Assembly (NCBI GenBank): GCA_001767435.1 | Contig: MEKT01000016.1 | Location: 106,783-152,385, forward strand | From: Acidobacteria bacterium RIFCSPLOWO2_02_FULL_65_29 | GTDB taxonomy: Bacteria; Acidobacteriota; Vicinamibacteria; Vicinamibacterales; CAVVIG01 | Direction: 5' to 3' | Length of the DNA: 45,603 nt | In this document: piece by piece, positions 6,624 through 12,400 of the stretch | How positions within the stretch are numbered: position 1 is the first letter of the stretch | How the letters are laid out: every line of letters starts with the position of its first letter | The notes under the pieces: model-generated | Databases searched by the model: none | Told to the model about the DNA's origin: nothing | The model's input: only the letters and a program-made list of their open reading frames with translations | Position numbers and translations under genes: made by a program

Positions 6624-6830
6624 GTGGCGGGTGGTGCCCGAGCACGAGCGGAGGCGCACCGGCTCTACAAGCGCTCGCTGGCGATCAATGAGAAGGCCCT
6701 TGGCCCGGATCATCCCGATGTGGCCACGAGCCTTGAGATTATGGCTGTGGTCTACAGAAGAACTGGCCGGGAAAAGGAAGCGGAGGCGCAGGAGAAACGG
6801 GCGGCGGCCATCCGGGCAATAAAACGATGA
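6624..6830 (+). pseudogene. 3' remnant of a tetratricopeptide-repeat protein gene
   Basis: The translation contains one and a half TPR units of the kinesin-light-chain-like type (AEAHRLYKRSLAINEKALGPDHPDVATSLEIMAVVYRRTGREKEAEA) and ends with RAAAIRAIKR and a stop, as C-termini of large TPR proteins in acidobacteria often do. Everything upstream of about 6630 is missing, so this is a gene tail and not a complete gene. The stop codon (6828-6830) is immediately followed by IS110-family sequence on the other strand, so a rearrangement boundary lies there. Confidence 0.7.
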
Positions 6831-7501
6831 AGTTGAATGTGGAACGCATCGGCATCGTGGCGCTTCGCCTCCCGCACGATCGTGAGTTCGAGGTCATTGA
6901 TCAGGCCGTCGTAGGTGTCCACGAGCGTCACGTCAACATCAATACTCTTGCGGACGCTGGGATCTGAGAACCGATCGGCCACGCCCTCGCGATTGGCGGG
7001 ATACGCGAGGCGCCGCTCGAAGGCGGGCAGGTTGTATTGGGCCCGCGTATTCTGAATGTGCGCCAGGAGCTGACCGCGCTTGCGCACGATCTGCAGCCGG
7101 CGCCGAAGGAGATCCCGGGTCGACCGCATGCCCGCTGGGTACACGTAGGCCTGCGGCAGCAGGCCGCCGCGCAGCAGGCTTGCGATCTTGTGCGAGTCGA
7201 TCTTATCGTTCTTCGCCTTGCCGCCGTGAATCGCCTTCATCGCGAGTGCGTGGCCGAGGACGAAGGCGATGCCTTCGGCGGCGCACAAATCCGCGAGCCA
7301 GTACCATGTGAACATACACTCCGCCGCGACGACGAGATCGTCACGGTACGGAGCGATCGTCGCGAGGAACGCCTCGGGAGTCGAGTTCACGTTCCGGTGC
7401 ACGAGCACCTGGCCGTTCGCGTCGAGCATGCACACGTACATGGTCTTCACGTGGAGATCGATTCCGCAATAGTGACGATGCTGACGGTTGTAGAATCTCA
7501 T
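6752..7501 (-). pseudogene. IS110-family transposase, C-terminally truncated
   Basis: The first ~223 residues match an IS110-type DEDD (RuvC-like) transposase: GIDLHVKTMYVCML (first D), AAECMFTWYWLAD (E), and KNDKIDSHKIASLLRGG (last two Ds). Full-length relatives have about 340 residues and carry a C-terminal Transposase_20 domain that starts with a PGIG motif. Here similarity stops after RHDADAFHIQ at about 6831, exactly where the TPR remnant ends, and the remaining residues are read from that remnant's antisense strand. The serine-bearing C-terminal domain is lost, so it should be inactive. The ATG at 7501 has a strong AGGAGG Shine-Dalgarno. Confidence 0.88.
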
Positions 7502-8242: not shown

Positions 8243-8256
8243 GCGCCAGACGGGTG
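8188..8256 (+). other. attC-like integron recombination site 2
   Basis: The left core GTCTAGC (8188-8194) differs from RYYYAAC at one base. The left arm (8197-8216) pairs with the right arm (8230-8247) as GGCGCT / CAGCC / ACGGCGC, with a single extra G bulged after the first block and another after the second, all on the left arm. This two-bulge pattern is what integron integrases recognise, and it matches site 1. The right core has decayed (CGGGTGA in place of GTTRRRY). With site 1 it encloses the DUF4160-DUF2442 cassette. Confidence 0.72.
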
Positions 8257-8727
8257 AGCCGCAGCCATACAATGACGCCTCGTTCTCGCCCGGCCGCACC
8301 CATCTTCGCGGTGCGGACGAGCGCCACGGGCGACATCAGCCTCGCCGAGGGCATCCAGACCAGCGCCCACGTCGCCTGGAGTCAGCAACGAGAAGGCGCC
8401 TACATGCAAACGCCGGTCGTCTACGGCGGTCATCTCTACGTCTGTCGAGACAACGGCGTCCTGAGTGTGTATGAAGCGGCGACAGGCAAGCGCCTGTATC
8501 AGCAGCGTCTCGGCGAGGGCCGCACCAGCTTCTCGGCTTCGGCTGTGGGCGGCGATGGGAAGCTCTACTACTCGAGCGAAGACGGATCGGTCTTCGTCAT
8601 CAAGGCCGGACCGATGTTCGAGCAGCTTGCGGAGAACGTCATGGGCGAGACGGCCATGGCGACGCCAGCGATCTCCGAAGGGATCATCTTCAGAACGCGC
8701 ACGCGTCTGGTCGCAGTCGGCAGGTAG
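8254..8727 (+). pseudogene. 3' fragment of a PQQ-like beta-propeller protein gene
   Basis: From about 8290 the translation matches the C-terminal third of a secreted PQQ-repeat (BamB-like) beta-propeller: AWSQQREGAYMQTPVVYGGHLYVCRDNGVLSVYEAATGKRLYQQRL and later GETAMATPAISEGIIFRTRTRLVAVGR. Complete members exceed 400 residues and start with a signal peptide; here only ~145 residues remain, and the first 12 are unrelated. The fragment begins about 40 bp beyond attC-like site 2, so its 5' part was probably removed in the rearrangement that left the cassette here. There is no plausible start with ribosome binding site. I take it as non-functional. Confidence 0.72.
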
Positions 8728-8839
8728 CGCGGGTCGGGCGAAAACTGTCGGAGGCAACCGGGGTGGAAAGTGATTTCGCGCGTCCTGGAGTTCTGGCGGT
8801 GCTTGTTCGACAGGGGCATTACCTCACAGGAGCTAGACC

Positions 8840-9575
8840 ATGAAATTCTCGCCGGCCGTCCTTGTAGGAATTCTGCTGTGCGGTGTCGTAGGCGCGGCTC
8901 AACAACGCCCTGCCGCTGACCCAGCCCTCGATCCGAAAACGCTGGAAGCCGCGCTGGCGGCCAAATCCCAAGGCGCCGAGGCTGAACGTCTGGCCGAGCG
9001 TATCGGAAGCGCCTTCGGAGGCCGGGACGCGCTATTGCGAGGCGCCGCGCCAAAGATAGACGAATTGAGCGTCGCTTGGGCGCTGGAGCTCGCCGAGCCG
9101 CTGCCACCCGCGCGGCCGCGCCCAGGGTCGCTCGCGACACCGACAACGCCAGCTGATGCAGGTGGGCACCACCGGGGTCTATGCGCTCGTCAGAACGCTT
9201 TCGCATGGAACGGCTTACACGTGGCACTACGAGGCCGGCAATCGCCGCTTCGGCGGATCTCAACTCGAAGTATGGGAAACGCATCCCGACAGCCGCGAGC
9301 ATCCCGGCGTGCCGAAGGGGATCGTCAAACAGATGCCGCCGTGGGAGAGCAAGATTTTCAACGGGACGAAGCGTGATTGGTGGATTTACGTGCCGGCACA
9401 ATATCGCGCGGAGAATCCCGCGGCCGTCATGGTCTTTCAGGACGGCAACCGTCCGAGAACCTGGGCGCCAACCGTCTTCGACAATCTGATCGCAAAGAAA
9501 GACATGCCCGTCACCGTCGGCGTGTTCATCGAGCCGGGCGGAACGAAGGTGCCGAGAGACAATCGCAGTTTCGGC
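8840..9575 (+). pseudogene. Enterochelin-esterase-like secreted hydrolase, frameshifted and truncated
   Basis: The start is good: AGGAG at 8830-8834, ATG at 8840, and a signal peptide (MKFSPAVLVGILLCGVVGAAQQ). The frame stays open to 9376, but family similarity jumps to another frame between about 9115 and 9156. The second frame continues with MQVGTTGVYALVRTLSHGTAYTWHYE, DWWIYVPAQY, AAVMVFQDGN and MPVTVGVFIEPG, which is the esterase (alpha/beta hydrolase) fold of enterochelin-esterase relatives. At about 9575 similarity ends inside NRSFG, where the 68-bp dispersed repeat begins; the catalytic serine and histidine regions are absent. There is at least one frameshift (probably two compensating ones near 9122 and 9148) plus loss of the 3' half, so the gene is dead. 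Confidence 0.8.
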
Positions 9576-9643
9576 TTATTGGTGGACCCGGGGCCCGCGC
9601 CCGCGGCGGGGCCGAGGTATTCGGCCCCAATCATATCGGGTCG
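9576..9643. repeat. 68-bp dispersed repeat, copy 2 (in broken esterase)
   Basis: Second copy of the block at 6214-6281, gapless, 52 of 68 identical. It replaces the 3' half of the esterase gene. A TATGAT on the minus strand and a hairpin (GGGGCCGAGGTATTCGGCCCC) fall in this copy. 9644-9703 shows nothing further. Confidence 0.7.
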
Positions 9644-9703
9644 GCGTCGGCCATGACGAGGAGGCCTCGGAACGCGCAACTCGCGCTGACGCCCCGCGAC
9701 GCG

Positions 9704-9715: not shown

Positions 9716-10471
9716 ATGGCTTCAACCGGATCGCCAGGTTCCACAAGCGCGAATGGTGTCGCAGCCTGGCAGAGGACGCTCGACGACACCGTCGCGGCAC
9801 TCCGTGCCGCGTTGGATCACAACCTCTGCAGCGTCGTCCTCTACGGAAGCGCGGCGCGGGGCGACTTCGTGCCGAGTGTGTCCGACCTTAACGTACTGAT
9901 CGTTCTCGACGAGTCGGGCCCGACGACACATGAGGCTCTCGCCGGCGTATTGCGCAGTCGTCCGGAGGTTGACGCCTTCGCCATCGGCCGACCCGGTTTG
10001 CTGCGTACCGCGCGCGCCTTCCCTGCAAAGTTCGCAGCGATCCGACGCACCGGGCGTACTGTATACGGCCCCGACCTACTGGCGGATGTGCCGCGCTTCC
10101 CGGCGCTGGAGCGCTTCGCGGCAGAGCAGGCGCTGCGCAACGTGCGGCTGCGGCTCGTCTACAACTTCATCAGGCGCGGCGGCGACCCGCCCTCGTACAC
10201 ACGATTCGCGCTGGGTTTCGTCCCTGCGCTCCATAGCGCCTGTAACACCGCGCTCGAATTGGAGGACCAGACGATTCCCCGCGGCCGTGAGGCCCAGGCG
10301 GCGCTCTACGCGTCAGTGTTTGGCGTGGAAGCCGGCGTGCTGCGCGAGCTGGCGCAGCTCAAACAGAAACCCCAGCCGCTTAGCGCGGCCCGGGTGAGCG
10401 CCACCCACGCGCGTCTTTTCGCGCTCGTGATGGGCGCGCTCGTTTGGGCCGAGAGGCGCTGGCCGGTATGA
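9716..10471 (+). CDS. Nucleotidyltransferase-domain protein of MNIO operon
   Basis: A 251-residue protein with a Pol-beta-type nucleotidyltransferase core: VVLYGSAARGDFVPSVSDLNVLIVL (residues 40-64). The G-S pair (44-45) and first acid (D57) are present, but the position that is normally Asp/Glu two residues later is Asn (N59), so catalytic metal binding may be altered. The C-terminal two thirds are helical and not recognised. Its stop overlaps the next ATG by 4 bp (ATGA), tying it to the membrane protein and MNIO genes. The substrate is unknown. It could modify the pathway product or a tRNA, or be a regulatory pseudo-enzyme; sequence does not decide. Confidence 0.82.
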   Translation: MASTGSPGSTSANGVAAWQRTLDDTVAALRAALDHNLCSVVLYGSAARGDFVPSVSDLNVLIVLDESGPTTHEALAGVLRSRPEVDAFAIGRPGLLRTARAFPAKFAAIRRTGRTVYGPDLLADVPRFPALERFAAEQALRNVRLRLVYNFIRRGGDPPSYTRFALGFVPALHSACNTALELEDQTIPRGREAQAALYASVFGVEAGVLRELAQLKQKPQPLSAARVSATHARLFALVMGALVWAERRWPV

Positions 10472-10992
10472 CCGACGCAGAAGGTCGGCGTCACGTCCCG
10501 CTCCGCGCAGCGGACATATGGTTGGTCATCGGCGGCGGAGTTGCGCTCTATGCCCCGCTCAGTGTCATCGGTCCCGGTCTGAGCGGCCCTGCTTACCTCG
10601 GGGTCTTCGCACTGATCTGGGCACTGTTGATGGCGGCCCACGTGACTCTGCGACACGTCTGGCGCGACAGCTTCGCGGTCTCCGGCGTCGCTGCGGCCGT
10701 GCTTGCCGGGCTGGCCTTCTCCCGCTACTTCTGGGGCGTGCAACGCGGCATGCAGCGGTGGACCTTTCTCACGATCATGGCCGCGCTTGGCTGCGCGAGC
10801 TTTTTCCTGCGTGCGGACTACCCGAGCGACCACGGCGGTGCCACCTGGAGACGGTCACTTCGTCGAGACGGCCGCGCCCGTTTGTGGACGGGCGGCTGCG
10901 GCAGCGCAAGCGGCAGTTGCAGCAGTGGCGGTGGTGGCTGCGGTGGAGGCGGGTGTGGTGGAGGAGGGTGCGGCGGATGCGGCGGGGACTGA
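10468..10992 (+). CDS. Membrane protein with Gly/Cys-rich C-terminal tail, candidate MNIO substrate
   Basis: The 174-residue product starts at the ATG overlapping the upstream stop. Four hydrophobic segments (about 17-35, 41-62, 68-87, 97-113) precede a short basic linker (RRSLRRDGRAR). The last 32 residues are almost only Gly, Ser and Cys, with six Cys at 144, 151, 158, 163, 168 and 171, mostly spaced as C-GGGG-C. Glycine codons vary (GGC, GGT, GGA, GGG), which argues for selection on the peptide and against simple DNA slippage. Membrane proteins with such tails (for example TIGR04222-type proteins) are known next to DUF692 genes, and MNIO enzymes modify Cys in peptides; that this tail is the substrate is inference. 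Confidence 0.85.
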   Translation: MTDAEGRRHVPLRAADIWLVIGGGVALYAPLSVIGPGLSGPAYLGVFALIWALLMAAHVTLRHVWRDSFAVSGVAAAVLAGLAFSRYFWGVQRGMQRWTFLTIMAALGCASFFLRADYPSDHGGATWRRSLRRDGRARLWTGGCGSASGSCSSGGGGCGGGGCGGGGCGGCGGD

Positions 10993-11774
10993 TCGGCCTC
11001 GGCCACCGGCCGAGTCTGGCGCGCTGGCTGGCGGGCGGGGTACCCGAGGTGGAATGCCTCGAACTCACCGCGGAACACTTCTTCGATGCGCCGGACGCCG
11101 CGATCTCGGCGATCGGCGAGCGCTATCCCTGTTCTGTCCATGGCCTCGGCCTCTCGCTGGGCACACCAGGCCCGCTTGACTCGGCTACATTCACCGGCTA
11201 CTCACGCGTCGCACGGCTGGCCCAGGCACGCTGGGCGACAGAGCATGTCGCCTTCACGCGCGCGGGAGGCATCGATCTGGGGCATCTCAATCCTCTTGCT
11301 CCCACGCGCGACAGCCTACAGCTGCTGACCGAGCATGCCTTGGAGGTACACGAGGCGACCGGCCTCCCGGTCTGTCTGGAGAACATCACGTCGCAGCTCG
11401 AGATCGCGGGCACCATGAGCGAGCCGGAATTCCTGAACGCGCTGTGCTCGGCGCCGCACGTCGGCCTGCTGATGGACGTGACCAATCTGTTCATCAACGC
11501 GCATAACCATGGGTTCGACGCGCGGGGATGGCTGTCCGAGCTGCAGCCGGGGGTCGTCAGGCAGATTCATGTCGTGGGCTACGGGGAGCAGGGCGGACGG
11601 TTGGTGGACGATCATCGCGTGGCAATTCAGACCGAGTTGCTCGATCTAATGGCTGCCATCGCCATGCGGCACGAGGTCGAAGCCGTCATCCTGGAACGCG
11701 ACCTGGACATTCCGGGCCCGGTGGAGTTGCTCGGCGAGCTGTCTCGCGTCGGGAGATCCCTTGGCTGGAGTTGA
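10977..11774 (+). CDS. DUF692 / MNIO-family multinuclear non-heme iron oxidative enzyme
   Basis: DUF692 proteins such as MbnB are TIM-barrel enzymes with two or three iron ions that oxidatively modify cysteines of ribosomal peptides. This 265-residue member begins IGLGHRPSLARWL and has the expected ligand-type residues: H55 (SVHGLGLSLG), H90 (TEHVAF), E135 (CLENI), D167 and N170 (LLMDVTNLFINAHNHGFD), H198 (QIHVVG), D212/H213 (VDDHR) and E240 (VILERD). The ATG at 10977 lies inside the end of the Cys-tail gene (16-bp overlap) with a GGAGG site in that gene. Such tight coupling supports enzyme and substrate being made together. The partner protein follows with a further overlap. Confidence 0.9.
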   Translation: MRRGLIGLGHRPSLARWLAGGVPEVECLELTAEHFFDAPDAAISAIGERYPCSVHGLGLSLGTPGPLDSATFTGYSRVARLAQARWATEHVAFTRAGGIDLGHLNPLAPTRDSLQLLTEHALEVHEATGLPVCLENITSQLEIAGTMSEPEFLNALCSAPHVGLLMDVTNLFINAHNHGFDARGWLSELQPGVVRQIHVVGYGEQGGRLVDDHRVAIQTELLDLMAAIAMRHEVEAVILERDLDIPGPVELLGELSRVGRSLGWS

Positions 11775-12291
11775 GCTGACGTCGGCACTGGCTCGTCTGC
11801 TGAGCGACCGCACACTGCGTCTGCGCTTCAACGCCGATCGAGGTGAGGTCGCTCGCGAGTTGGAACTGACGACGCGCGATGCCGCCATCCTCTGCGCGGT
11901 CGACGCGGCGGGGTTGGAGGCTCAGGCACAGACGCTCCTCGACAAGCGCCGCAGCGAAGCCACGCGGATCATGCCGCGAACCTGGAAGCTGCTGGCCCCC
12001 GCGGGGACGGGGCTCTTCGAAGAGTACGCCTCTGACCACTGGCCCACGGGCCACCTGCGCCATCCGATGGACGCATTGGCCTTCATGCGCTTCCTGGTTG
12101 AGCGTGGCCTGCCGCACGATCGGATCGAGCGGCTGCGGATGGAGACGCGCCTCTCGGATCGGCGCCGTCGCATCAGCGTCGTGCCGAGCGGGAGCCGCTG
12201 GAAGCTGCCGGCGCTCTACGTTGCCTGGCTCACCCCACGAGGCTGGAGCGAGCGTCTCGTGCACGTCGGTCCCCGAGCGCGAGCGCTGTGA
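11761..12291 (+). CDS. MNIO partner protein (HvfC/MbnC-like role)
   Basis: A 176-residue soluble protein. I recognise no catalytic motif. The segment IMPRTWKLLAPAGTGLFEEYASDHWPTGHLRHPMDALAFMRFLVERG recalls partner proteins encoded beside DUF692 enzymes (DUF2063/HvfC, MbnC), which bind the peptide leader and activate the iron enzyme; this assignment rests on position and size more than on firm similarity. The start is a TTG at 11761 with GGGAG 7 nt upstream, overlapping the MNIO stop by 14 bp. It ends the operon. 12292-12400 is a short non-coding gap with a few CTACCCG-type repeats. Confidence 0.65.
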   Translation: MAGVELTSALARLLSDRTLRLRFNADRGEVARELELTTRDAAILCAVDAAGLEAQAQTLLDKRRSEATRIMPRTWKLLAPAGTGLFEEYASDHWPTGHLRHPMDALAFMRFLVERGLPHDRIERLRMETRLSDRRRRISVVPSGSRWKLPALYVAWLTPRGWSERLVHVGPRARAL

Positions 12292-12400
12292 TTCAGACGA
12301 AAAGCAAACTCGATCTGCCGACCCGACCCGCCCTGCCTCATCTACCAGAGCTACGTGGCTTACCCGACCTACCCGGCTTACCCGACCTGGCGGCCGAGTG

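Follow-up and report, generated by a model that had tools for sequence, protein, structure and literature searches.

A four-gene acidobacterial operon with an MNIO enzyme and a membrane-anchored Gly/Cys tail as its putative substrate

Results

The window, by which we mean the whole 45,603-nucleotide stretch of DNA that was analyzed, carries a four-gene operon encoding a nucleotidyltransferase (NTase)-fold protein, a short membrane protein with a Gly/Cys-rich C-terminal tail, an MNIO enzyme, and a partner protein. Our preferred reading, to which we assign a probability of roughly 55%, is that this operon is a divergent and pared-down form of the TIGR04222-MNIO-PME type 2 clusters, in which the MNIO and the partner would oxidize the cysteines of the tail at the cytoplasmic face of the membrane and the NTase-fold protein would be a pseudoenzyme. 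In the literature that we searched, we found no precedent for an anchor this short that does not match TIGR04222, for a partner with the character of a leader domain, or for an S-D-x-N pseudo-nucleotidyltransferase, either by itself or in association with Gly-tailed membrane proteins.

All four genes lie on the forward strand. The gene for the NTase-fold protein (exact coordinates 9716–10471, 251 aa) overlaps the gene for the membrane protein (10468–10992, 174 aa), the putative MNIO substrate, by 4 bp in an ATGA. The membrane protein gene in turn extends 16 bp into the MNIO gene (10977–11774, 265 aa), which belongs to the MbnB/TglH/ChrH family (PF05114), and the MNIO gene shares 14 bp with the partner gene (11761–12291, 176 aa, TTG start). 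These coordinates and overlaps exactly reproduce those of a first-pass annotation, which had described four genes overlapping end to end. All four frames are open, and the GC3 across the genes is 0.74 to 0.80. Upstream of the operon, at 8254–9656, the window contains fragments of a PQQ-propeller gene and an esterase-like gene that is split across frames, which suggests that these are pseudogenes. An IS110-type transposase ORF (6752–7501, PF01548, E=1e-16), apparently shortened, adjoins the pseudogene stretch.

The known system that the operon resembles most closely is that of the TIGR04222 proteins, for which Antoine et al. (2025, PMC12452194) proposed a role as MNIO substrates, with partners of PME type 2. 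The Gly/Cys-tailed membrane proteins beside DUF692 genes that the first-pass annotation had mentioned correspond to this published group. According to that study, the TIGR04222 tails are predicted to be periplasmic and an MNIO is absent from a third of the genomes with TIGR04222. It shows tail modification for no TIGR04222 protein and raises the question of whether entire membrane proteins are among the targets of MNIO enzymes. Shared with these clusters are a membrane protein that lacks a signal peptide, a Ser/Gly/Cys C-terminal tail, and an adjoining MNIO with a candidate PME type 2-like partner. Unlike TIGR04222 proteins, the window protein is 174 aa long, does not match TIGR04222, seems to lack TM1, the soluble domain, and TM4, and has a tail that is predicted to be cytoplasmic. 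The operon is also headed by an NTase-fold gene, none of which is mentioned in the main text of PMC12452194. The order NTase-TIGR04222-MNIO-partner was found in three genomes (G298, G084, and G382) and, with the MNIO and partner fused, in two more (G098 and G434); the presence of the four-gene order in five further families of the phylum speaks against a chance arrangement. The possibility that the four genes would not co-occur in relatives, raised with the first-pass annotation, is countered by these genomes. As in the window, the NTase and membrane protein genes of G382 (L110) overlap by 4 bp.

The MNIO of the window matches PF05114 over the whole barrel (residues 6–259, E=9.1e-59, 199 bits against a cut-off of 25). 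The iron ligands of TglH are H71, H107, E151, D184, N187, H216, D229, H231, and E258 (PMC10880893). In an alignment with TglH and relatives, the corresponding positions are H55, H90, E135, D167, N170, H198, D211, H213, and E240. All nine are present and are invariant across 10 aligned relatives, which bears out the MNIO ligand-type residues reported earlier. The best NCBIfam match is the bufferin maturase BufB (NF050167, E=5.5e-50), with a score of 170 bits that is below the curated cut-off of 310 bits. Beyond this nearest model and Cys-Gly targets, the resemblance to the bufferin and captophorin systems (BufABC, Hvf, and Fon) ends: the window has no signal-peptide precursor and no EGKCG repeats, and the partner is not DUF2063. 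The enzyme fold, the iron ligands, and a partner, which those systems need for substrate recognition, are shared with TglHI and MbnBC, but the similarity is low, a methanobactin or pearlin precursor is absent from the window, and the tail is fixed to a membrane anchor.

Only one PF05114 gene, that of the window, was found in its own genome. A genome-wide scan by exact-seed matching, which is too strict for a query this divergent, returned only 8 relatives (28–36% identity). The closest MNIOs in 396 genomes of the phylum come from four genomes, share 33–36% identity with the window MNIO, and lie directly 3' of TIGR04222 membrane proteins with near-identical Gly/Cys tails. In a tree of 99 MNIOs, the window MNIO was placed in a tail-associated clade (support 95/84) and did not group with MNIOs from the same family and order. 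Its branch is long (2.66), and a tree with the window MNIO outside of the tail clade was not rejected by an AU test (p=0.09). Near a tail-clade MNIO of another genome (G401, L058:3558–3818), a small ORF with a DLNDASGGG leader and a CTGCEGCDRCNGCDG core was noted as a candidate RiPP precursor.

The membrane protein has four hydrophobic segments (residues 19–35, 44–60, 68–84, and 98–114), in agreement with the four-helix protein described previously. It had no match at E<1 to Pfam, NCBIfam, or TIGR04222, and no TIGR04222 protein was found in its own genome at E<=0.001. With the anchor as query, 193 genomes of the class yielded no homologue beyond E of about 1e-3; the weak matches were mostly in larger ORFs. 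By hhalign, TM3-TM4 of the anchor aligned with the TM2-TM3 hairpin of TIGR04222 with a score of 27.8 (E=0.0016) over 37 columns only. This score was reached by 1 of 400 segment shuffles and by none of 110 unrelated membrane ORFs. The window membrane protein may thus represent a TIGR04222 protein from which TM1, the soluble domain, and TM4 are missing, which would leave the TM2-TM3 hairpin. TIGR04222 proteins are themselves detectable relatives of DUF2207_C (PF20990, E=9e-11, L045:5347–6309).

The distribution of charges was used to predict the orientation of the tail. Full-length TIGR04222 relatives have few Lys/Arg before TM1, 5–9 after TM3, and 0–4 after TM4, which places the tail outside, after TM4. 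The window protein has a basic N-terminus, four segments, and WRRSLRRDGRAR immediately preceding the tail, with 7 Lys/Arg after TM4 as compared to 0–4 in TIGR04222 proteins with a called TM4. With the TM4 of TIGR04222 apparently missing and WRRSLRRDGRAR in front of the tail, the tail is predicted to be cytoplasmic and the protein to be N-in/C-in. The first-pass annotation had suggested a tail at the cell surface; the positive-inside charges and the hairpin homology point instead to the cytoplasm. The alternative of a modified tail that lies in the periplasm or on the surface and there binds copper or some other metal, as proposed for TIGR04222, is consistent with the periplasmic prediction for that family (PMC12452194), with the charge counts of the full-length relatives, and with the binding of copper by related MNIO products (PMC13097082). 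Set against these points, the apparent absence of TM4, WRRSLRRDGRAR before the tail, and the N-in/C-in prediction make an exposed tail unlikely for the window protein.

The tail itself, LWTGGCGSASGSCSSGGGGCGGGGCGGGGCGGCGGD (10882–10989), contains six Cys with a spacing of 6-6-4-4-2 and a C-terminal CGGC. Its glycine codons (GGC 9, GGT 4, GGA 4, and GGG 3) are varied, as had been noted along with the six Cys. Part of this variety is accounted for by a Shine-Dalgarno-like GGAGGAGGG (approximately 10960–10969) just 5' of the MNIO ATG, in which some non-GGC glycine codons of the tail double as the ribosome-binding site of the MNIO gene. A sequence-repeat artefact was ruled out by the mixed codons and by the conservation of the tail in relatives. 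Nearly all tail proteins encoded next to an MNIO retain the C-terminal CGGC despite having different anchors, and the window protein has the C-terminal Gly/Ser tail, six Cys, and CGGC end in common with the MNIO-linked subset of TIGR04222. Together with the recurring gene order, this supports the original proposal that the Cys/Gly tail is the likely substrate of the MNIO operon.

The relation between tail Cys and MNIO was assessed in the 18 genomes with a protein over the TIGR04222 cut-off by counting Cys in the last 50 residues. An MNIO adjoins TIGR04222 in 14 of the 18, and every one of these 14 tails contains 5–9 Cys, nearly always with a terminal CxxC. The other four genomes have no MNIO anywhere, and their tails contain 7 Cys (G117), 3 Cys (G114), at most 1 Cys (G410), or an unrelated CHSA repeat (G192). 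In G192, a TIGR04222-like protein (L169:1–2334) ends in a CHSACHSACHSAC repeat. G117, the genome of which is 99% complete, encodes an NTase-TIGR04222 pair with the 7-Cys tail. The association of Cys tails with MNIO is strong, but a full Cys tail is possible without MNIO and, as the NTase and tail of G117 indicate, does not require it.

G117 and the third of TIGR04222 genomes that lack an MNIO (PMC12452194) are what would be expected if the tail were unmodified, with a structural or metal-binding role, and the MNIO and partner acted on some other substrate, or if the partner itself were the precursor. We consider this improbable for the window operon. No further precursor ORF was noted in the operon. 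The helical N-terminal domain of the partner, which is followed by a C-terminal extension, resembles NHLP/Os17, LigA, and Frankia_peptide domains. Elsewhere, these domains are RiPP leaders, which speaks for the partner as a precursor. The match to NF038399 (NHLP/Os17) has an E of 0.002 in the window and of 1e-8 to 5e-9 in homologues; no match to Pfam was found for the partner. However, the domain is fused to the MNIO at three loci and a Cys core is lacking from the short partners, which argues for a role in recognition and not for a precursor. The core of the partner is common to the partners of other tail loci. Partners of PME type 2 are encoded beside an MNIO and have a DUF2063/TglI-like fold but no DUF2063 signature; the window partner agrees with this in its position and in the lack of a Pfam match. 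An AF2 model of the partner (pLDDT 70) gave a top TM-score of 0.48, not significant with a Foldseek E of 6.4, to a chain of 8hci (TglHI) that we take to be TglI by its length, and a TM-score of 0.37 to 3dee, the E of which was also not significant.

The first gene product had been called a nucleotidyltransferase, and as regards its Pol-beta-type fold this designation stands. It matches PF01909 with E=1e-3, which is below the cut-off, and a profile search matched the structure of an ANT(3'')(9) aminoglycoside adenylyltransferase (7uy4, E=5e-5). The designation fails at the catalytic residues. The motif reads G44-S45 ... S56-D57-L58-N59 where S-D-x-D is expected, so that the second catalytic Asp is replaced. 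The carboxylates of the Pol-beta-type GS...[DE]-x-[DE] pattern are therefore incomplete, and no third carboxylate is conserved. The position of Asn59 is Asn in all of the family members read, and one homologue (L204) has lost the first Asp as well. Judged by these residues, the protein is a probable pseudoenzyme. An apparent match at another locus (L096) proved to be another, larger ORF in which the S-D-x-D is normal, and was discarded.

The surveys of NTase and MNIO homologues sampled one phylum. The NTase profile search returned a first tier of seven homologues (E<=1e-68), two of which (G117 and G434) had no part in building the profile, and a second tier from E=3e-43. All seven tier-1 homologues, from seven families of the phylum, adjoin a Gly/Cys-tail membrane gene, and one of the seven genomes (G117) has no MNIO. 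At each of the 24 tier-2 loci examined, a Gly-rich-tailed TPM-domain protein and a LemA gene (PF04536 and PF04011) lie alongside, and the second catalytic position is Asn wherever the motif was read. These LemA-TPM operons thus share with the window an S-D-x-N NTase homologue beside a Gly-rich-tailed membrane protein, but their tails are GGFGGGGASGxW-like and not of the CGGC type, and no MNIO was noted alongside. G117 and the 24 LemA-TPM loci led us to abandon the idea that the NTase is a component of MNIO systems in general. What the first-pass annotation had taken for an addition to the described MNIO systems is a recurrent component, but the company that it keeps is that of Gly-tailed membrane proteins (of the TIGR04222 or TPM/LemA kind) and not of MNIO. 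From this genomic company, the family is probably a non-catalytic handling factor for Gly-tailed membrane proteins.

Discussion

We infer a mechanism for the operon, including its enzyme activity, substrate identity, chemistry, tail topology, and metal binding, in which the MNIO and the leader-domain-like partner would form a cytoplasmic complex that oxidizes the cysteines of the C-terminal Gly/Cys tail of the membrane protein. The product would probably contain sulfur heterocycles of a thiooxazole or oxazolone-thioamide type, and the modified tail would be membrane-anchored and probably metal-binding, by analogy with the 5-thiooxazole captophorins (PMC13097082). Since the tail is most likely on the cytoplasmic side of the membrane, as is the MNIO, export of the modified tail would be unneeded. 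The NTase-fold pseudoenzyme would carry out no nucleotide transfer; its probable role is to bind or manage the Gly-tailed membrane protein. More broadly, and only as a tentative suggestion that we regard as somewhat doubtful, S-D-x-N pseudoenzymes could handle Gly-tailed membrane proteins of both the LemA/TPM and TIGR04222-like kinds, with MNIO and partner recruited to some of these tails. The conversion of Cys, here at the cytoplasmic face, would then take place on a fixed tail and not on a released peptide.

At 174 aa, and with a ligand-complete MNIO and a partner next to it, this candidate substrate offers a smaller target for testing than the TIGR04222 proteins, which are about 300–400 aa. 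In addition, the link between the pseudo-NTase and Gly tails across two operon types provides a handle on both the LemA/TPM and TIGR04222 systems.

That the operon is instead a decaying, horizontally acquired remnant with no present function, comprising a truncated TIGR04222 gene and a fast-evolving MNIO, would fit the long MNIO branch, the reduced anchor, the esterase and PQQ fragments and transposase upstream, and the lack of a close relative in the family or class, but stands only a slim chance given four open and tightly overlapping frames, their GC3 of 0.74 to 0.80, and the retention of the MNIO ligands, the partner core, and the CGGC end.

Two minor observations concern the regions 3' of such operons. 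In the window, the gap 3' of the operon contains a degenerate short 9-bp repeat, TACCCGACC (12361–12388). In two other families, the tail operon is followed by the gene for an RCK-domain potassium channel (TrkA_N and Ion_trans_2, with a TVGYGD filter; L103:4364–5863 and L175:6008–7849), one of these genomes having an MNIO (G084) and the other none (G117).
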